From NCBI GenBank assembly GCA_015491955.1, contig WGFZ01000065.1, positions 1 through 34,307 of the forward strand: a stretch of DNA of 34,307 nucleotides. The letters run 5' to 3'. Numbering within the stretch: the stretch's first letter is position 1; each line of letters starts with the position of its first letter. Source of the DNA: Nitratifractor sp. Lineage in GTDB: Bacteria > Campylobacterota > Campylobacteria > Campylobacterales > Sulfurovaceae. A model generated the notes under the pieces. That model had not been told where the DNA came from. It saw only the letters and a program-made list of their open reading frames with translations, and did no database searches. Shown here piece after piece: positions 22,435 to 34,307 of this stretch. The translations under genes were made by a program, and so were the position numbers.

Positions 22435-23157
22435 TTAGATAATAGTAAACGGATTTTTCGATGGCGTGATTATAACCGAAATTGGCAAAGTTTTCAATAA
22501 TTTATATAATAACTTAGCAAAAAAGTGTTCACTCTCCCAATGACCAATATCAACCATCATCAACCCTTGACTCATCGCCTTCATAGCTTCGTGATATTTA
22601 ATATCTCCTGTTAAAAAGCAATCTGCCTCTACACTATCTATCAAAGATGCTCCAGAGCCTGTACATAGAGCAATAGATCCTATATTATCTTTTGGTGAGA
22701 CTATACGTAGGCTATTTAAGCCAAAAGCCTTTTTTATTTTTTCTTGAAGTTCCATAAGAGTCCAATTAACCTTAGCTTCACAAAGAAAGGGCTTTTCCCT
22801 CTCTATCTCTAACTCTAAAACTTCGCGAAATACATAACTATTTAGATGAGTCTTATCAAAATTTGTATGCATTGCTATTAGAGATTGTCCCTTTTGAATA
22901 AGTTTTTCTATGAGATTAGCAGGATATAGCTCAAAATTTAATGATGTAAGTTTTCCAAAAATTAGTGGGTGGTGTACTATAAAAAGAGTTCCCTCTTTTG
23001 CTCTTTCAATCATCATCTCATCAATATCCAAAGATAAAACAACCTCATCAACCTCTCGATTCATATCACCAATAATCAAACCGCTATTATCCCACTTCTC
23101 TTGTAATTCAAAGGGGCTAATAGTATTTAGATACTCATATATTTCACCTATTTTCAT
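22435..23157 (-). CDS. Nif3-like dinuclear-metal-centre protein
   Basis: 240 residues, Nif3/YbgI (GTP cyclohydrolase I type 2) family; forms hexameric rings with a two-metal site, with unclear role. Seen: EKWDNSGLIIGD, FIVHHPLIFGKL (metal-binding His pair), IAMHTNFD, FLTGDIKYHEAM and DIGHWESEHF. ATG 23157 overlaps the regulator's stop by 4 bases (ATGA), so it is translationally coupled to the Crp/Fnr gene. Confidence 0.93.
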   Translation of the reverse strand: MKIGEIYEYLNTISPFELQEKWDNSGLIIGDMNREVDEVVLSLDIDEMMIERAKEGTLFIVHHPLIFGKLTSLNFELYPANLIEKLIQKGQSLIAMHTNFDKTHLNSYVFREVLELEIEREKPFLCEAKVNWTLMELQEKIKKAFGLNSLRIVSPKDNIGSIALCTGSGASLIDSVEADCFLTGDIKYHEAMKAMSQGLMMVDIGHWESEHFFAKLLYKLLKTLPISVIITPSKNPFTII

Positions 23158-23849
23158 TTAAACCCTTTATTACAATTAACCATACACCTAGTACAAGTTT
23201 TTATTTTATTGTTTTCAATAACCTCTTCCAATGCACAAGTATCTAAAATCGTAATCTTATGCTCTTTATCTATTGAAATCAATCCCTCTCTTTTCATCTT
23301 ATTAAATATACGAGAGAGTGTCTCTGGAGTTAAATTTAAAATAGCAGCTATCTCATTATATTTTAGAGTAGTAAATATATCAATATTTTCTAAAAGAATC
23401 TTAGCCACTTTTGCTTCAGAAGAGAGAATAGTCTCTTTTTGAATAAGAGATGATAAAACCATTATTTTAGATGTAAGAGACTTAATAAGTTCAAGAGAGA
23501 AATCACTATTTGATAGATTTTTATATATATAATCATAAGGTATTAGTGCCATTTTCCCATCTGAAACAAATTCACAAGTGGCAGGGAAAGGCATACGCTC
23601 AAAACAGGCATACTCTCCTATAATTGAAGGTTTATCAAAACGATTTATTTGAATTTGGCTACCTTTTGGAGACGTTTTGTAAAGTTTAACACTACCTTCT
23701 ATAAGAATATATAGATACTCTCCAATATCACCCTCATAAAATACAATTCCATCTTTACTATAACTCTTAATAATAGAGTTATCTTCAATCTCACGAATAT
23801 GATTTTGAGATAGTTTTGAGAAGAGTCCTATTTGACTTAAATCAACCAT
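23154..23849 (-). CDS. Crp/Fnr-type regulator with C-terminal cysteine cluster
   Basis: 231 residues. A cyclic-nucleotide-binding-type sensor barrel (about 8-115), a long dimer helix, then a winged helix-turn-helix with YNEIAAILNLTPETLSRIFN (164-183). ETLSR matches the Glu/Ser/Arg pattern of the E. coli FNR recognition helix (ETISR), which reads TTGAT. It lacks FNR's N-terminal cysteines; instead Cys 205, 219, 222 and 226 sit at the C-terminus (CTRCMVNC), with Cys 82 and 92 in the sensor. A redox, Fe-S or NO-sensing role is plausible but inferred. It lies directly after the heme d1 genes and before nif3 (ATGA overlap), and a 9/10 FNR box covers its own first codons. Confidence 0.88.
   Translation of the reverse strand: MVDLSQIGLFSKLSQNHIREIEDNSIIKSYSKDGIVFYEGDIGEYLYILIEGSVKLYKTSPKGSQIQINRFDKPSIIGEYACFERMPFPATCEFVSDGKMALIPYDYIYKNLSNSDFSLELIKSLTSKIMVLSSLIQKETILSSEAKVAKILLENIDIFTTLKYNEIAAILNLTPETLSRIFNKMKREGLISIDKEHKITILDTCALEEVIENNKIKTCTRCMVNCNKGFK
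23832..23845 (-). promoter_or_regulatory. FNR-like box over the regulator's first codons
   Basis: On the coding strand TTGAT-TTAA-GTCAA, 9 of 10 matches to the FNR consensus TTGAT-N4-ATCAA, at codons 2-6 of the Crp/Fnr gene. If bound, it would act as a roadblock or repressor site. It could also be chance, since it encodes VDLSQ. Confidence 0.35.
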
Positions 23850-23891: not shown

Positions 23892-24623
23892 CTATTTTTC
23901 AAACCAACTCAAATCTTTATGTAGTTTAACAACTTTACCTACAACAATAAGTGCTGGTGTTGGTAAATCCTTTGCTTTTTCATAAATATTGCTAAGTGTA
24001 CCTATAACTGTCTTCTCCTCTGCCCAAGTTCCTTTACTAATTACAGCTATTGGAAAATCTTTTGGCTTCCCAATTTCTAATAATTTCTCTGTAATATGTT
24101 TAAGGCGATGTAAGCCCATTAAAAAGATAATCGTATCATCACTTTTATAATTTTCCCAAGGAATTTGGCTCTTATTTTTACTAGCTTCATGACCTGTAAC
24201 AACTCTAAAGCTTACTGTAATTCCTCTATGAGTTACAGGAATACCCGCATACTCTGGAACTGCAATAGCTGATGTAATTCCTGGAATAAATTCAAATTTT
24301 ACTCCTCTTTGCTTTAGGTATATACCCTCTTCTCCCCCACGTCCAAAAACTAAAGGATCGCCACCTTTTAGGCGAACAACAATATCATATTTTAAAGAGG
24401 CTTGATAGATAAGCTCATTGATCTCATCTTGTGGAAGTGTATGGTGGCTATCAGCCTTACCAACATATATAAACTCACACCCATCTTTTGCCTCTGATAG
24501 AATCTCTGGATTAGCAAGACGGTCATATATGATAACATCAGCCTTACGAATTACTCTAAGAGCCTTTATTGTTAAAAGTTCTAAAGCTCCAGGACCTGCA
24601 CCTGTTAAATATACTCTACCCAT
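23892..24623 (-). CDS. cobA: Uroporphyrinogen-III C-methyltransferase
   Basis: SUMT (CobA/NirE) methylates uroporphyrinogen III twice with SAM to give precorrin-2, the branch point to siroheme, heme d1 and cobalamin. About 243 residues: VYLTGAGPGALELLT (SAM-site loop), YDRLANPEIL, VRLKGGDPLVFGRGGEE, GITSAIAVPEYAGIPVTHRG and the TPALIVVGKVV ending. Start ATG 24623 (MGRVYLTG) fits the family; an ATG six codons earlier has no ribosome site. It overlaps nirJ by 8 bases. Its place in the d1 operon suggests the NirE role. There is no fused HemD or siroheme-synthase domain. Confidence 0.92.
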   Translation of the reverse strand: MGRVYLTGAGPGALELLTIKALRVIRKADVIIYDRLANPEILSEAKDGCEFIYVGKADSHHTLPQDEINELIYQASLKYDIVVRLKGGDPLVFGRGGEEGIYLKQRGVKFEFIPGITSAIAVPEYAGIPVTHRGITVSFRVVTGHEASKNKSQIPWENYKSDDTIIFLMGLHRLKHITEKLLEIGKPKDFPIAVISKGTWAEEKTVIGTLSNIYEKAKDLPTPALIVVGKVVKLHKDLSWFEK

Positions 24624-25740
24624 TAGCTCTCTCTTTATCATTTAAATAACAAGATGGGTCTTCTTCCCAAAGTTCTCCTGATATAGCATAGGCTCTACTT
24701 CTACTACCACCATTACAGATATTCACTACTCCACAATTAGCACAATTACCAGATAATTTTCGTGGGTGTTCTCTTAAACGTCTTAAAATATCATTATCTT
24801 CATCTAGCCAAATTTCACTAAAGGGCTTTTGAGTCATATTTCCAATGGTAAAATGGAAAAATGGATCTGGTTTAACATTACCCTTCCAATCGATATTAAC
24901 AAGCCTCCGCCCTGCACTATTACCTCCCCATTTAAGCAGACGCCTACGCATCTCATCTTTTAAACTTGGATAACGATTAGAGAACTCTTCTAAAAATAAA
25001 ATAGAATCCATCTCCATATTTCCAGTAACAATATCAATACCTCTTCCTTGCTCATAATATTCAAATGCTTTATCTATAATAAATTTTACATAAGTGCGAC
25101 GCTCATCTTTAGAGATGTCAATCTTTAGATTATCTAAGCCTCTACCACTATATACAAGATGAGAGATATATATCTTATCTACACCAATATCTTCAGCCAA
25201 TTTAAAAATATCATAAAAGCTAGATTGTGTCTCTTTAGTTAGGGTGAAACGGATACCTGCATTACCTTGATGTTTTTGAATTAGTGCAATAGCTTCAAGA
25301 CTTCTTTTATATGCTCCTTTAAGCCCTCTAAACTCATCGTGAATAGTCTCTATCCCATCTATACTAATTCCAATATAGTTAAAAGTTTCAATAATCTCAT
25401 CTACATTTTTATCATTTATATATAATCCATTTGTAGATAGATATGTAATAATCCCAACCTTACGCATAGCTTGAGCAATTTGAAAAATATCTTTACGAAT
25501 TAGTGGTTCTCCACCACTAAATATTACAAAACGAACCCCACCTTTTAAAAGTTCAGGAATAGATTCTAAAATAAATTCAGTACTCAAAAAATCCTCAGAG
25601 TTAGCATCAGCATAACTATAACAGTGTTTACAAGCAAGATTACATCTATTTGTAAAATTCCAAATAGCAATAACGCCATCTAAAGAACGCTCCCTTTTAC
25701 CCTCAACTACTGAAGATATTAAATTTGATAAGCGAAACAC
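24616..25740 (-). CDS. nirJ: Heme d1 biosynthesis radical SAM protein NirJ
   Basis: 374 residues. Radical SAM enzyme that removes the propionate side chains of 12,18-didecarboxysiroheme on the way to heme d1. The Fe-S motif is C33NLAC37KHC40; FSGGEPLIR follows (SAM site). A C-terminal SPASM-like region has CANCGVVNICNGG and a last Cys in DPSC. The start is GTG 25740, immediately after the nirF stop; the opening MFRLSNLISSVVEG aligns with the usual NirJ start as I remember it. AhbC-type heme enzymes are similar, but the neighbours nirF and SUMT decide for NirJ. Confidence 0.92.
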   Translation of the reverse strand: MFRLSNLISSVVEGKRERSLDGVIAIWNFTNRCNLACKHCYSYADANSEDFLSTEFILESIPELLKGGVRFVIFSGGEPLIRKDIFQIAQAMRKVGIITYLSTNGLYINDKNVDEIIETFNYIGISIDGIETIHDEFRGLKGAYKRSLEAIALIQKHQGNAGIRFTLTKETQSSFYDIFKLAEDIGVDKIYISHLVYSGRGLDNLKIDISKDERRTYVKFIIDKAFEYYEQGRGIDIVTGNMEMDSILFLEEFSNRYPSLKDEMRRRLLKWGGNSAGRRLVNIDWKGNVKPDPFFHFTIGNMTQKPFSEIWLDEDNDILRRLREHPRKLSGNCANCGVVNICNGGSRSRAYAISGELWEEDPSCYLNDKERANG

Positions 25741-26880
25741 TTAATGACTCACTTTTGATGATTTTTTTAGATAGTCATCTGGTGCTTCAAAAAGAAAGAT
25801 TCCAGAGGGTTTACGTACTGGCCACATAAAGTGCTTCCACCACTTTTTGGGGTCTGGGTCAGATACTCTATAGGCTAACACTTCATTTTTAGTATTTACA
25901 CTAAAATAGATATGTGGAGTATCTTTTGACCAACGAAGATGTAAAATCCAACCATCAAACTTAAAGGTACGCATAATTTTAAATGTTTTTGTATCTATAA
26001 TCTGTACATAGGGAAAATCCTTACCACTAAAACTAACAGCTAACCACTTTTGATTTGGACTCATAGCAGTAAATACAGGATTTCCTTTAACCTCAATAGC
26101 GCTTATTGGCTTAAAGTTATGGTCAAAGACAAAGACCTTTTTAGCTCCAACAGCTGGAATAAAGAAGTAATCCTTTGAGATACTCCAAAAACCAAAGTGA
26201 GGAACTTTTAAGATTCTATCTTTCCTACCAAGATTTAGAGGAATCTTTTTATACTTCATAGTATCAAGGTTTAATAGACCAACATCAGGAGAGTTAAATA
26301 GCCCTGCTACATATAGATTTTTATGAATCATAGCATCAAAAGGGACTTTTCCAATATCTTTAAACTTCTTAAATAGAACAAAGTGAGCTTTAGCTTTACT
26401 AAGATTTTCATTCTTCATCACCCAAATCTCATCACTATCCATCAATTCAAAGATTAAATAGTTTTTATAAATCTTAATTCCAACATTTCTACTACCTGTT
26501 TTGATAGTTTGTAATGGATTTAAATCTCTATCTAAAATTTCAACTGTCTTATTATCATAGTTGGCTACTGCTAAAAAATTACTCCCTATAATAAATCCAA
26601 TTGCACTTTTAGATGTTTTATACTCTTTTAGCTTTTTGTTATGAATGGGGTCAAATTTGATAACATATCCATCTCTAGTAATGACATATCCATCATTATC
26701 ACGAAACTTAACAACAGCATGATTAAAATTGTGCATATTTTTAATCTTATCTACTAAGAGATTATGGTCAATTACTGCTAAAGCAGAGTTTTCACGCTCA
26801 ACAACAAAAATCTTCTCTCTTGCACTTAAAGAGCTAATAGTAGCTCCTAGTATAAATAGTAAAAAGAGCATCTTTTTCAT
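25741..26880 (-). CDS. nirF: Heme d1 biosynthesis protein NirF
   Basis: 379 residues with a signal peptide (MKKMLFLLFILGATISSLSA), so periplasmic. The rest is an eight-bladed propeller of the cytochrome d1 type without the heme c domain: repeats such as VERENSALAVIDHN, FLAVANYDNKTVEILD, VFTAMSPNQKWLAVSFSG and VQIIDTKTFKIMRTF. NirF catalyses a late step in heme d1 formation in the periplasm. No lipobox Cys is visible, unlike some NirF. ATG 26880 overlaps the cytochrome c stop by 4 bases. Confidence 0.92.
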   Translation of the reverse strand: MKKMLFLLFILGATISSLSAREKIFVVERENSALAVIDHNLLVDKIKNMHNFNHAVVKFRDNDGYVITRDGYVIKFDPIHNKKLKEYKTSKSAIGFIIGSNFLAVANYDNKTVEILDRDLNPLQTIKTGSRNVGIKIYKNYLIFELMDSDEIWVMKNENLSKAKAHFVLFKKFKDIGKVPFDAMIHKNLYVAGLFNSPDVGLLNLDTMKYKKIPLNLGRKDRILKVPHFGFWSISKDYFFIPAVGAKKVFVFDHNFKPISAIEVKGNPVFTAMSPNQKWLAVSFSGKDFPYVQIIDTKTFKIMRTFKFDGWILHLRWSKDTPHIYFSVNTKNEVLAYRVSDPDPKKWWKHFMWPVRKPSGIFLFEAPDDYLKKSSKVSH

Positions 26881-27212
26881 TTCTTATCCTTAAATGAGAT
26901 TATAAAATCTGTTAATATCTTAATTTGACTAGCATTTAAATCATTAAAAGCTGGCATAGAGTTACGTTTGTAACCAAGTGTTTTATAGACAGCTTGAGGA
27001 TTAACAATTTGAGCCATTATCTGCTGTGGTGTACGCCTATTTGCAATTGAACGAAAAGAGGGACCAAATGCTTCAGCACTTTGATGATGACAACCCCAAC
27101 AGTAACTTTTAAATAGTTTCAATCCAGCCTTTTGCTCAATATCTAAATCACTAGCTAATATTACATAAGGTAATAGCAATATAACGATAACTCTAATAAT
27201 ATTAAAACTCAA
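26877..27212 (-). CDS. Small periplasmic c-type cytochrome, NirC-like
   Basis: 111 residues. An N-terminal signal helix (about 4-20) precedes a class I cytochrome c with one heme site C38WGCH42 and a likely Met axial ligand in NSMPAFNDL. Size and position ahead of nirF match NirC (cytochrome c55x), an electron carrier or late d1 maturation partner, but a NirM-like donor to nitrite reductase is also possible. The start is TTG 27212 with AGGGG upstream; no better start precedes the signal helix. First gene of the d1 operon. Confidence 0.85.
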   Translation of the reverse strand: MSFNIIRVIVILLLPYVILASDLDIEQKAGLKLFKSYCWGCHHQSAEAFGPSFRSIANRRTPQQIMAQIVNPQAVYKTLGYKRNSMPAFNDLNASQIKILTDFIISFKDKK

Positions 27213-30187: not shown

Positions 30188-30212
30188 TAAAAAATCTTAG
30201 AAAGGGTTGTCT

Positions 30213-30452
30213 ATGTTTAATATAAAAGTTGAAAAAGAGTGTGGTTGCTTTAAAAAGAGTTCAATACAAAATAATCAAAGAGTTGATAATAAAGATGATG
30301 CTTTATTCAAAGCTCAAAATATGGCTAAAGAGATGAATGAGACTTTCTGCCAAAAACATAACTTTAAAGTAGTTGAAAGTGATAATGACTTTATAATAAA
30401 AGTTGAGGAAAATAAAGCATCTACTTGTTGTGGAGGTGGACACTGCCACTAA
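30213..30452 (+). CDS. Small Cys/His-rich protein, possible metal binder
   Basis: 79 residues from ATG 30213 (AAAGGG 6 bases upstream); a TTG two codons earlier is less likely. No signal peptide. Cysteines: ECGCF near the N-terminus, FCQKHNF in the middle, and a C-terminal CCGGGHCH, a compact thiol/imidazole tail like those of metal chaperones. The body is helical with beta (NFKVVESDNDFIIKVEEN). It has its own promoter and lies after trkH, convergent with acpS. Family not recognised; metal binding is inferred from the tail alone. Confidence 0.75.
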   Translation: MFNIKVEKECGCFKKSSIQNNQRVDNKDDALFKAQNMAKEMNETFCQKHNFKVVESDNDFIIKVEENKASTCCGGGHCH

Positions 30453-30826: not shown

Positions 30827-31015
30827 CTATCCAAACTCTAAATATCCTGCAACAATTAAAGAAAATAATATAGTAAAACCAATAACCATAACTTTATACC
30901 ACTTATCACCAATACAATAACGCTCTTGTAACCAATCACTAATCCTCATAGCAGGATAGGCAAAAAATAGAAGCAAAACAGACGTATATACAAGTGTCAA
31001 AACAATATTAATCAT
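30827..31015 (-). CDS. Small two-helix membrane protein
   Basis: 62 residues with two hydrophobic helices (about 3-22 and 42-59) joined by a polar loop, SDWLQERYCIGDKWYK. No signal for cleavage. ATG 31015 overlaps the stop of the preceding gene by 4 bases. A similar small membrane gene next to acpS occurs in Campylobacter as I recall. Function unknown. Confidence 0.7.
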   Translation of the reverse strand: MINIVLTLVYTSVLLLFFAYPAMRISDWLQERYCIGDKWYKVMVIGFTILFSLIVAGYLEFG

Positions 31016-31398
31016 TTATCTTTCACCTGATAGTAATTTTCAATAAAATGTTTCTCTTTCTCACTTTTTAGTGGTATTTTCTTTAACTCTTTAGAACTAC
31101 TATCTAAGATAATCAAAGTTTCACCTTTAAGTTTTAAATGTTTACTCGCCCATTCACGCTCTAACTCTTGAAGCCTAGAATAAAAATGTATAGCATCTGG
31201 CTCCTCTTTAAATTTAGGATTATCCTTACGAAGAATTTTAAGACCACCAAGAGTTTTTTCAATTACAAATGGAGTATATTGCCGTATTATAGGATAAAGA
31301 CGTGCATCACGGTGGGCTGGTCTTCCCAAAATAAAGGCTACAGCTACTAAAAAAAGGACAACCGCCCCCAATCCAAATCCAACTCTTTTACTTAACAT
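31012..31398 (-). CDS. Unknown single-pass membrane protein
   Basis: 128 residues from ATG 31398 (AAGGA 7 bases upstream); a TTG one codon earlier is the alternative. One N-terminal helix (about 6-25, GLGAVVLFLVAVAFILG) anchors a charged domain with DARLYPIIRQYTPFVIEKTLGGL and REWASKHLKLKG, probably periplasmic. Position upstream of acpS recalls fliL in Campylobacter, but I see no FliL signature, so I leave it unnamed. Coupled by ATGA overlap to the two-helix protein. Confidence 0.7.
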   Translation of the reverse strand: MLSKRVGFGLGAVVLFLVAVAFILGRPAHRDARLYPIIRQYTPFVIEKTLGGLKILRKDNPKFKEEPDAIHFYSRLQELEREWASKHLKLKGETLIILDSSSKELKKIPLKSEKEKHFIENYYQVKDK

Positions 31399-31455
31399 CA
31401 AAAAATCCTTTTAATAAATCAAAACTAAGTATAGAGTCTCATATATTATAAATAG

Positions 31456-31498
31456 TTGATAAATATCAAGCCAATAACTGCTCCCCTTGCGATACACT
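31456..31498 (+). promoter_or_regulatory. FNR-type class II promoter of the 31528 gene
   Basis: TTGAT-AAAT-ATCAA at 31456-31469 is a perfect FNR/DNR box. A -10-like TACACT lies at 31493-31498. With a start near 31504, the box centre (31462.5) is at -41.5, the classical position for FNR activation. No -35 is needed or seen. Confidence 0.82.
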
Positions 31499-31527: not shown

Positions 31528-31902
31528 ATGTTAAGAGATTTTTTCTATTTAGAGGGAGCATATTTAATCTTAGCGGTTATTATTATACTAATTACAATTT
31601 TTGTAACTACCCGCCCTTTTATGTCTCCATCTGCTCCTAAAAAAGGATTAGTGGCTGTTAGCTTAATTCTTAGTTTTTTTATAGGTATCCATTTTTGGAT
31701 TACAACCTCACGTATAGCCTATGTAAAAAAAGCATTTTATGAGAATAAACCTATTCTTTGTGAAAGTAGAATGTTACGTAAAATGGCTCAATCTATTGAG
31801 ATTCGTAAATCAACATTATCTAATTGGCAAATAAAAGGTGATAATTTTGTATCTCCTGAGTATAATCGACCTTTTCACCTTGCTCGTTGTATTGTTAAAT
31901 AG
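31528..31902 (+). CDS. Unknown membrane protein under FNR-type control
   Basis: 124 residues, ATG 31528 with AAGGAG 6 bases upstream. Two hydrophobic helices (about 10-28 and 40-60), then a soluble basic tail with two Cys (LCESRML and LARCIVK) and KSTLSNWQIKGDNF. No heme or metal motif. It has its own FNR-type promoter, followed 120 bases later by a second one for the norC operon. I do not recognise the family. Placement suggests a role in nitric oxide reduction or nitrosative-stress response; that is inference only. Confidence 0.75.
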   Translation: MLRDFFYLEGAYLILAVIIILITIFVTTRPFMSPSAPKKGLVAVSLILSFFIGIHFWITTSRIAYVKKAFYENKPILCESRMLRKMAQSIEIRKSTLSNWQIKGDNFVSPEYNRPFHLARCIVK

Positions 31903-31936: not shown

Positions 31937-31978
31937 TTGATTACTATCAACTCTATTTGACGAAAAAATTCTTATAAT
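31937..31978 (+). promoter_or_regulatory. FNR-type class II promoter of the nor operon
   Basis: TTGAT-TACT-ATCAA at 31937-31950, a second perfect FNR/DNR box, and TATAAT at 31973-31978. A start at about 31985 puts the box centre (31943.5) at -41.5. Spacing from box to -10 is almost the same as in the promoter 480 bases upstream. Confidence 0.87.
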
Positions 31979-32021: not shown

Positions 32022-32366
32022 ATGGGAAATTTTATTGGGTGGCCAGAGATTGCACCAGAGCAGTTTTTACCTATTTTCATTATTTCAACACTAGTTTTAA
32101 TATTTGGAGTAGGATATGCCTCAATCATTACACTGGCAAAAATGGGATTTTTCTCAAAAAGATGGATGACTCTTGGCTACTTGTTTTGGGGCTTACAAAC
32201 ACTTAGTCTATATAAGCTTGCCATACTTATACATAGTAATCACTATACAACAAAAGTATTACTAGTAACTATGATAGCTTATCTCTTCGTACCTCATCTG
32301 TACTTCTACCTAATATCAGAGTCAGATAAGCGTTACGAACAAGACAATGATAATCAAACAAAATAA
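32022..32366 (+). CDS. Small membrane protein, first gene of the nor operon
   Basis: 114 residues, ATG 32022 with GGAG 8 bases upstream. Three hydrophobic helices (about 14-37, 47-66 and 76-97), the last ending in a charged cytoplasmic tail ESDKRYEQDNDNQ. Histidines in LIHSNHY and VPHLYFY lie at helix ends, but no known heme or metal motif is present. It is 10 bases upstream of norC and under the same FNR-type promoter, so it is probably made together with the NO reductase. Not recognised as NorE, NorF, NorD or NorQ. Confidence 0.78.
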   Translation: MGNFIGWPEIAPEQFLPIFIISTLVLIFGVGYASIITLAKMGFFSKRWMTLGYLFWGLQTLSLYKLAILIHSNHYTTKVLLVTMIAYLFVPHLYFYLISESDKRYEQDNDNQTK

Positions 32367-32376
32367 AGGAGGAAGA

Positions 32377-33045
32377 ATGGCTAAAAAACAAGCATCAGTT
32401 TGGACAAGTATTAGCTTTTGGCGTCGTTCTGCAGCTTGGGTAACAGGCTTTGCGACAATTTTGTTAATCTGGCTAACATTTGATACTATAGGTCAGATTC
32501 GTATGGGTACTAACGATGAGTTGGTAAAGGGGATAAAAAGGAGAGTTCCTGCTCCAACTGTAGTTAATTATAAAATTGGCTACAAATATGATGCAAAACG
32601 TGGTTTAGAAGCTCCTGTAATAGGACCTCAAAAACAGCCACTATTTGGTAAAGAGTTGAGTCCAAAAGAGGCAAGTGAGATGCTTCATCTAGGAAAACTT
32701 ACATCTCAAGCTAAGAACTGTATGGATTGCCATACACTACTTGGAAATGGTGGCTATTATGCACCAGATTTAACAAAAGCTTGGCTAGACCCAATGTGGG
32801 AAAAGACTATGCCTGCTATTACAAATACAAAGACAAAAGAGGATGCTATGGTGGCATTTTTAATGCACCCTGAACTATTTGCTACACATGCTAGACGTAT
32901 GCCAAATTTGGGAATAACCAAAAAAGAGGCAAAGGCTCTTGTTGTATTCTTGAAACATATGTCCTCTATTGATACAAATGGATATCCTAGAGGATTCTCT
33001 AAAACAGTAGAACAATACAAAGCAGGAGGGACCTATGCTAAGTAA
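32377..33045 (+). CDS. norC: Nitric oxide reductase cytochrome c subunit NorC
   Basis: 222 residues from ATG 32377 (AAGGAGG 4 bases upstream). N-terminal membrane anchor (about 20-36), then a periplasmic cytochrome c domain: C115MDCH119 heme site followed by TLLGNGGYYAPDLTKAW, a NorC hallmark, and Met 175 in RRMPNLGI as axial ligand. It passes electrons to NorB. Typical NorC has about 150 residues; here about 50 extra lie between anchor and heme site (GLEAPVIGPQKQPLFGKE) and a further tail follows. The stop overlaps norB by 11 bases. Confidence 0.93.
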   Translation: MAKKQASVWTSISFWRRSAAWVTGFATILLIWLTFDTIGQIRMGTNDELVKGIKRRVPAPTVVNYKIGYKYDAKRGLEAPVIGPQKQPLFGKELSPKEASEMLHLGKLTSQAKNCMDCHTLLGNGGYYAPDLTKAWLDPMWEKTMPAITNTKTKEDAMVAFLMHPELFATHARRMPNLGITKKEAKALVVFLKHMSSIDTNGYPRGFSKTVEQYKAGGTYAK

Positions 33046-34307
33046 AACTGCACACTTATCACCTTCTAAACAGTTGGCGATGAACTACTTTAGAGTGGCA
33101 ATTGTACTATTTGGTGCACAATTACTAATGGGATTAATTGCTGGATACCAATTCTTAAATCCTAGCTTTTTATATGGTATTTTTGATTTTAGTGTAGCCC
33201 GTATGATACATATCAATGCACTTGTTGTCTGGATGCTCTATGCAATGATAGGCTCAGTCTATCTAATGTTACCAGATGAGACTGGTATTGAAAATCCTGT
33301 ATATATAGGACTGGGTAAACTAGCATTTTGGATATTAACTATTGCTGTTGCTATTGTTGTATTAGTCTTTATCTTTGTTCAAGTTGGACCTGGTAAAGAG
33401 AGTACTATTTGGTTTATTAATGAGGGTCGTGAGTATCTTGAGGCACCACGTTGGGCTGATATTGGTATTGTTGTAGTTGTTTTAATCTTCTATGCTAATG
33501 TATTCTTTACCTATCTCAAAGGTAAGAGAACTGGAATTATGACTGTTATGGTTGCCAACTTGATGGCTGTAGCTGGTCTATATCTTGCTGGAATGTTCTT
33601 TACTGATAATATATCTATGGATCAATACTGGTGGTGGTGGGTTATTCACCTTTGGGTAGAAGCTACTTGGGAAGTATTTGTTGGAACACTAGCTGCTTAT
33701 GCCTTGATTAAAGTAATCGATGCTAAACGTGAAATTGTTGAGATGTGGCTATGGATTGAAGTATTGATGCTATTTGGTTCTGGAATTTTAGGACTTGGGC
33801 ATCACTACTTTTGGATTGGAACTCCTGAATATTGGTGGGAAATTGGAGCCCTATTTAGTTCTCTTGAACCTGTTCCTTTAGTTGCAATGTTTGTTCACGT
33901 ACTCTATGATTGGGGTAAAGAGCAAGGTCAATGTGAAGCACATGGTGAAAAGAGTACTATAAAAAATGGTCCTGTAATGGCTTGGCTTGTTACAAATGCC
34001 TTTGGAAACTTCCTAGGTGCTGGTATTTGGGGATTTTTCCATACACTTCCTCAAGTAAATATCTATACACACGGCTCACAATTTACAGCAGCTCACGGAC
34101 ACTTAGCATTCTTTGGTGCCTATGCAACAATCTTGATTGGTATGATGTATCTTGGTATCCAAGAGAACTATGGAATCAAAAGAATGAAGATGACTTTCAA
34201 CTCTAAAATGGCAATAAGTTTAATTACATTTGGAGTTTTAGGAATGACTGTAGCCTTGACAATTGCTGGATATGAGCAAGTACTTATAGAACGTGCTGAA
34301 CTTGGTG
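33035..34307 (+). CDS. norB: Nitric oxide reductase catalytic subunit NorB, partial
   Basis: The first 424 residues; the gene runs off the window. ATG 33035 with AGGAGG 5 bases upstream, overlapping norC. Reduces 2 NO to N2O in the inner membrane (heme-copper oxidase superfamily). Ligands line up with Pseudomonas NorB: His 59 (heme b); His 205 and Glu 209 in HLWVEATWE plus His 256 and 257 in GHHYFWIGTPEYW (FeB); Glu 213 and Glu 278 (SSLEPVPL); His 354 and 356 in AAHGHLAF (hemes b3 and b). The QVGPGKES...NEGREYLE segment is also typical. This is the cytochrome-c-dependent type, matching the norC just before it. Confidence 0.96.
   Translation, partial: MLSKTAHLSPSKQLAMNYFRVAIVLFGAQLLMGLIAGYQFLNPSFLYGIFDFSVARMIHINALVVWMLYAMIGSVYLMLPDETGIENPVYIGLGKLAFWILTIAVAIVVLVFIFVQVGPGKESTIWFINEGREYLEAPRWADIGIVVVVLIFYANVFFTYLKGKRTGIMTVMVANLMAVAGLYLAGMFFTDNISMDQYWWWWVIHLWVEATWEVFVGTLAAYALIKVIDAKREIVEMWLWIEVLMLFGSGILGLGHHYFWIGTPEYWWEIGALFSSLEPVPLVAMFVHVLYDWGKEQGQCEAHGEKSTIKNGPVMAWLVTNAFGNFLGAGIWGFFHTLPQVNIYTHGSQFTAAHGHLAFFGAYATILIGMMYLGIQENYGIKRMKMTFNSKMAISLITFGVLGMTVALTIAGYEQVLIERAELG

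Follow-up and report, generated by a model that had tools for sequence, protein, structure and literature searches.

Among the chemolithotrophic denitrifiers of vents and redox gradients, Sulfurovum and Sulfurimonas (Campylobacterota) are important members. Related promoters have been described in Nitrosophilus labii: the distance from the first nucleotide of an exact TTGA-N6-TCAA box to the transcription start predicted from RNA-seq is 48 nt for norE and nosB and 49 nt for napA (PMC11539149). The two Crp/Fnr regulators of this bacterium are homologous to NssA and NssB of Wolinella, and the first gene of its nor unit was called norE (PMC11539149). The Wolinella proteins respond to nitrate and NO (PMC6682613). 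For the reductase itself, cNOR of Paracoccus denitrificans made without NorQ/NorD is fully hemylated, has no FeB and is inactive (PMC9976466). In the literature on Sulfurimonas and Sulfurovum nor clusters we found no paper naming the protein called C1 below, and none addressing the supply of non-heme iron to a Campylobacterota cNor without NorQ.

The DNA studied is a 34,307-nucleotide contig (34.3 kb, hereafter the window) from a Nitratifractor draft genome. The initial annotation described a perfect FNR box giving C1, a small membrane protein, its own promoter next to the NO reductase genes. This finding is real; as a promoter it is stronger than first stated, but it is shared and two-way. 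The features discussed are collected in Table 1.

Table 1. Positions of boxes, -10 hexamers and genes discussed in the text
Feature	Position	Strand	Remarks
Crp/Fnr-family regulator, candidate reader of the boxes	23154..23849	-	sole HTH_Crp_2 match in the draft genome
C4, membrane protein of about 62 aa	30827..31015	-	downstream of C0 and often its neighbour
C0, divergent 129-aa protein, single TM and mixed alpha/beta domain	31012..31401	-	ATG likely at 31398; co-conserved with C1
-10-like TATACT for divergent C0	31428..31433	-	inferred start ~31421, -41.5 on the C0 side
FNR/Dnr/Nss-type box, perfect TTGATAAATATCAA	31456..31469	.	centre 31462.5; common to both divergent genes; in 71/80 relatives
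-10-like TACACT for C1	31493..31498	+	inferred transcription start ~31504 (-41.5)
C1, 124 aa, two TM helices and small beta domain	31528..31902	+	invariant C78/C121; no Pfam/NCBIfam family
Second perfect box TTGATTACTATCAA, nor unit	31937..31950	.	box in the C1-C5 interval at 54/68 loci
-10 TATAAT of the nor unit	31973..31978	+	22 nt from the second box
C5, membrane protein of 114 aa encoded ahead of norC	32022..32366	+	in 67/68 cNorB+ genomes
norC, cytochrome c subunit of cNor	32377..33045	+	PF00034
norB, catalytic subunit of cNor	33035..34307	+	PF00115, 1.3e-56; continues past the window end

Promoter of C1 and the nor unit

Only two exact boxes occur in the window (31456 and 31937), and box sites in the 1.11-Mb draft genome number 12, versus 2 for a reversed control pattern. 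The perfect box reported earlier is indeed at 31456-31469, reading exactly TTGATAAATATCAA, and the 124-residue gene at 31528-31902, with an RBS-like GGAG preceding its ATG (31528), is the only gene ahead of the second box at 31937-31950, again as annotated. TACACT stands 23 nt 3' of the first box. If it is taken as the -10 hexamer, the computed distance from the box centre (31462.5) to the inferred start (31504) is 41.5 nt, which reproduces the spacing first proposed. The 48-49 nt from box start to transcription start in N. labii likewise put the centre at about -41.5, matching the value obtained here.

Conservation was scored at 80 loci of C1 homologues, mostly from Sulfurovum, Nitratifractor, Hydrogenimonas and Arcobacter-type MAGs. 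Within 200 bp upstream of C1, 71/80 loci have a box with no more than one mismatch, compared to 3.7% of 200-bp windows drawn at random from these loci; for perfect boxes the values are 40/80 and 0.54%. A TAnnnT hexamer follows 21-24 nt downstream in all 72 boxes scored (those of the 71 relatives and that of the window), control offsets giving 6-20 of 72. This combination of a TTGAT-N4-ATCAA palindrome at about -41.5 and, 21-24 nt further on, a -10 hexamer is that of class II FNR/Dnr-type promoters, and the box at 31456-31469 very probably acts as such a promoter for C1.

The nor unit has a box of its own. Fifty-two of 55 nor-unit boxes have a hexamer matching TATAAT in at least 5/6 positions at exactly 22 nt, usually CATAAT or GATAAT. 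The conserved box and -10 on the C1 side, together with the separate nor-unit box, indicate that C1 has a promoter of its own that is under selection. We also considered that C1 might merely open the nor operon; this is ruled out, as far as sequence conservation can tell, by the second box and -10 that precede C5.

Divergent use of the box

The hexamer TATACT on the minus strand (31433-31428), absent from the earlier reading, lies 22 nt from the box edge and faces the divergent gene C0. On this side, the distance of TAnnnT from the box is exactly 22 nt at 58/59 loci with a box and an adjacent C0, and at 1/12 loci that have the box but no adjacent C0; at one further locus C0 is at -379. A class II -10 on both sides of the box with the divergent gene adjacent is thus the arrangement of 58/59 loci, and it is also that of four loci from deeper lineages (L069, L070, L073 and L074). 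The presence of a -10 at 22 nt on the C0 side as well points to one palindrome at -41.5 for two divergent starts, and it is highly likely that the box serves C0 in addition to C1. That the box drives C1 alone, the C0-side TATACT being unused, is very improbable: the hexamer keeps its exact place where C0 is adjacent and is nearly always missing where it is not, and the two-way layout recurs in the deep lineages though other genes flank the box there. The proposal that C1 has its own promoter holds insofar as a class II box is conserved separately from the nor promoter, but this box appears not to be dedicated to C1, since C0 would use it too.

At the four deep loci the distance from C1 to a perfect upstream box is about 1 kb; the box comes immediately before a gene for a nirDL-like siroheme decarboxylase and has -10-like hexamers at 22 nt on both sides. 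In L070, L073 and L074 it stands between nirDL and a cysG-like gene (precorrin-2 dehydrogenase type), both names being assigned by reading the sequences. The deep-lineage order is then C0 and cysG leftward, the box, and nirDL and C1 rightward, C1 overlapping or abutting nirDL. Comparison of this layout with that of the window shows C0 and C1 staying at the outer ends of the divergon, with different genes between them. The genome of the window has its nirDL at another place (C67:93588), preceded by a box and a -10 of its own, and the window layout may have derived from the nirDL layout. One box for two divergent starts, kept as the inner genes change, represents a regulatory core that outlives its gene neighbourhood.

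Candidate regulator

The Crp/Fnr protein encoded at 23154-23849 is free of N-terminal cysteines and does not conform to the 4Fe-4S cluster of FNR; an O2-sensing FNR is therefore not indicated. The name FNR given initially to the box holds for the palindrome, which is of FNR/Dnr type, but not readily for the regulator, as the sole Crp/Fnr protein found lacks the N-terminal cysteines. The draft genome is 73% complete and further Crp/Fnr regulators may be missing from it. Judging from its sequence, a Dnr/Nss-type protein that senses NO or another nitrogen oxide is no less likely than a sensor of O2. The protein carries a C-terminal cysteine cluster, CTRCMVNC. Beside its gene, on the same strand, 23892-27212 (-) holds one run of heme d1 genes (SUMT/NirE-like, NirJ, NirF-like and a small cytochrome c). 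NirS was not found in the draft genome at its 73% completeness.

Association with nitric oxide reductase and heme d1 genes

The initial annotation placed C1 next to the NO reductase genes. This is so at 52/61 testable loci, where norCB is beside C1, but in other lineages the gene is found behind nirDL. Co-occurrence was counted in 180 genomes of the order, where all counts are inflated by shared ancestry. C1 and cNorB are both present in 66 genomes and both absent from 109, with 3 and 2 discordant cases, numbers to which the same inflation applies. The exceptions G072, G090 and G166 are genomes 82-89% complete, while G046 and G113, which are nearly complete, are real exceptions having C1 without cNorB. 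In G113, cysG and nirE are near C1; in G046, nirDL-cysG-C0 is on a separate contig from C1. C1 and C0 give 64/5/5/106 (both, first only, second only, neither), and C5 and cNorB give 67/0/1/112. Occurring in 67/68 cNorB+ genomes and never without cNorB, C5 has the distribution of a constant subunit or factor of cNor. The initial annotation had raised the possibility that C1 homologues stand mostly away from denitrification genes and without the box; instead, they have it at 71/80 loci and track cNorB throughout the order. The link of C1 to denitrification is well supported, and we hold it likely that C1 has an accessory role in this process.

Proximity to nirDL leads to another assignment, in which C1 and C0 would serve the heme d1/NirS branch (siroheme-to-heme d1 conversion, d1 export or cd1 maturation) and the closeness to norCB in Sulfurovum/Nitratifractor relatives would be secondary. 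C1 directly follows or overlaps nirDL in L069, L070, L072-L074, L158 and L159, several of these loci having nirF, nirE and nirJ-like genes nearby; C0 often comes after cysG; and co-occurrence of C1 with NirDL in the 180 genomes (64/5/7/104, in the same order as above) is close. Since C1 is coupled to nirDL, and not to nor, in many lineages, a heme d1/NirS role fits as well. In genomes that have only one of the two branches, C1 goes with cNorB. In G003 and G077 (99-100% complete), NirS and NirDL occur without either cNorB or C1. Conversely, G042 has cNorB, C1, C0 and C5 but no NirDL and no NirS. C1 is present in 4/5 NorB+ NirDL- genomes and in 2/8 NirDL+ NorB- genomes, so that it tracks Nor more than heme d1. 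A role of C1 and C0 in the heme d1/NirS branch appears rather unlikely to us, and we moderately favour a C1 that serves cNor rather than NirS or heme d1.

G013, G043, G053 and other genomes code for a second cd1 nitrite reductase, ~30% identical to Sulfurovum-type NirS and missed by a NirS search at E <= 1e-100, often in tandem pairs beside norB.

Properties of C1, C0 and C5

C1, C0 and C5 match no family above the curated cut-off in Pfam, NCBIfam or PADLOC. Weak hits to BILF1, ATP_synt_H and DUF4131 were set aside, as they look like transmembrane noise. The AlphaFold model of C1 (pLDDT 92.9, pTM 0.79) has two transmembrane helices and a small C-terminal beta domain. Residues invariant in 33/33 relatives include Cys78, Cys121, His55, Arg29 and Phe107. 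The mean net charge of +3.4 in the inter-helix loop weakly favours an inner position of the loop and an outer one of the C-terminal domain, which makes a periplasmic disulphide plausible. The beta domain with its invariant cysteine pair is thus probably periplasmic, and Cys78-Cys121 could plausibly form this bond.

A PDB sequence search with the C1 profile gave no match, and Foldseek and VIA-align with C1 gave nothing at E <= 0.001, the rows being mostly helix hairpins that allow no interpretation. Best among these structures above E 0.001 is the helix hairpin of YbiO (Z 7.7, rmsd 2.7, 59 aligned residues); the C-terminal domain aligns, also above E 0.001, with an SH3-like designed barrel (Z 4.3, rmsd 2.9, 56 aligned). 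The fold search with C0 returned nothing informative (best Z 3.8, rmsd 2.7, 57 aligned). Elsewhere in the window, 30207-30452 codes for a 79-81-aa protein ending in STCCGGGHCH, of no Pfam family, between TrkH-like and acpS-like genes.

The C1 profile has weak matches (E 1e-7 to 1e-3) in other genomes, and 9/11 of the loci read are one and the same place, between murC and mutS2 (L171, L172, L174, L175 and L177-L181, neighbours being named by reading the protein sequences). In L174 the gene is just upstream of mutS2 only, and the contig of L180 shows murC only. Coordinates of the small protein are 1919-2251 in L171, 2005-2343 in L172 and 1124-1453 in L174. The murC-mutS2 proteins are small, with two transmembrane segments, an AFxxxKxxxC motif and, close to the C-terminus, another cysteine, features that C1 has in common with them along with the profile match. 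Alignment by hhalign gives a probability of 97.3 and E 2e-11, a figure that is partly circular because the comparison set came from C1 hits; no such circularity affects the repeated finding of the gene at a single independent locus. G041, G057 and G187 hold both proteins. From these sequence traits C1 is a distant paralogue, not an orthologue, of a widespread protein of the phylum. The latter, unnamed and without Pfam family, differs from C1 by its low identity (~14%), its other locus and its lack of nor linkage, and the conserved N-terminal half of C1 (FFYLEGAYL, TTRPFM) is particular to C1.

This kinship allows an explanation by which C1 and C0 would be general nitrosative-stress or envelope proteins, C1 being an NO-induced copy of the murC-mutS2 protein that maintains an envelope function in the presence of NO and makes no contact with Nor or Nir. 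The homology to a phylum-wide protein, with two invariant cysteines in common, and the strict Dnr-type control of C1 and C0 speak for this explanation. It is unlikely, given the large divergence of C1 from the murC-mutS2 protein (14% identity in the profile alignment) and a C1 distribution that closely tracks cNorB.

Proposed role

The NorQ domain PF08406, the one Pfam domain used as probe, is absent from 28/30 C1+ genomes, and the constant companions of cNor in this clade are C5, C1 and C0. G152 (G152:C1:393098-397055, NorQ hit L165) has a second, ~40%-identical cNorB a few kb from a NorQ-like gene, and has the NorQ-free cNor type too. The explanation we retain for the whole, at about an even chance, is that of a bidirectional box controlling C1 and C0 as accessories of a cNor that lacks NorQ. 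A Dnr/Nss/FNR-type activator bound at 31456-31469 would switch on C1 and C0 together, and the second box would switch on C5-norC-norB in parallel. C1, with C0 and perhaps C5, would then help to make, metallate or protect cNor in the mostly NorQ-less Campylobacterota. The distinct function in NO handling suggested initially for C1 would be of this kind, and its biochemical role may lie at any of these steps.

More specific versions are less secure. That C1 acts specifically for FeB or for assembly without NorQD is doubtful. The most elaborate version, to which we give a low probability, is a NorQD-independent maturation system composed of C1, C0 and C5 that would load or stabilise FeB, be co-induced by Dnr/Nss-type boxes, and include a C1 recruited from a housekeeping membrane protein, with its invariant and probably periplasmic cysteine pair. 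The conservation of both divergent genes and of their box across denitrifying Campylobacterota makes C1 and C0 strong candidates for a helper function in nitric oxide reduction that has gone unrecognised. C1, C0 and C5 form a short list of co-regulated, co-inherited and unnamed proteins that makes the question of iron supply to a NorQ-free cNor directly testable.

Comparison with known systems

The promoter resembles the class II Crp/Fnr denitrification promoters of the Dnr, NnrR and Wolinella/Nitrosophilus Nss systems, with the same TTGA-N6-TCAA about 41.5 bp from the start and the same regulon content. It differs from them in that one box would lie 41.5 bp from each of two divergent starts and in that both targets are unnamed membrane proteins. 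The likeness of C1, C0 and C5 to Paracoccus NorQ/NorD is one of proposed role only, that of a needed companion of cNor. NorQ and NorD are soluble MoxR AAA+ and VWA proteins, whereas C1, C0 and C5 are membrane proteins of 114-129 aa and have no Pfam match to a MoxR AAA+ ATPase (CbbQ_C) or VWA domain. NorE/NorF and NorH of other nor operons are likewise small membrane proteins beside norCB, and norE of N. labii probably belongs to the C5 family. The distinction of C1 from NorE, NorF and NorH drawn here is one of location: C1 stands outside the nor transcription unit.
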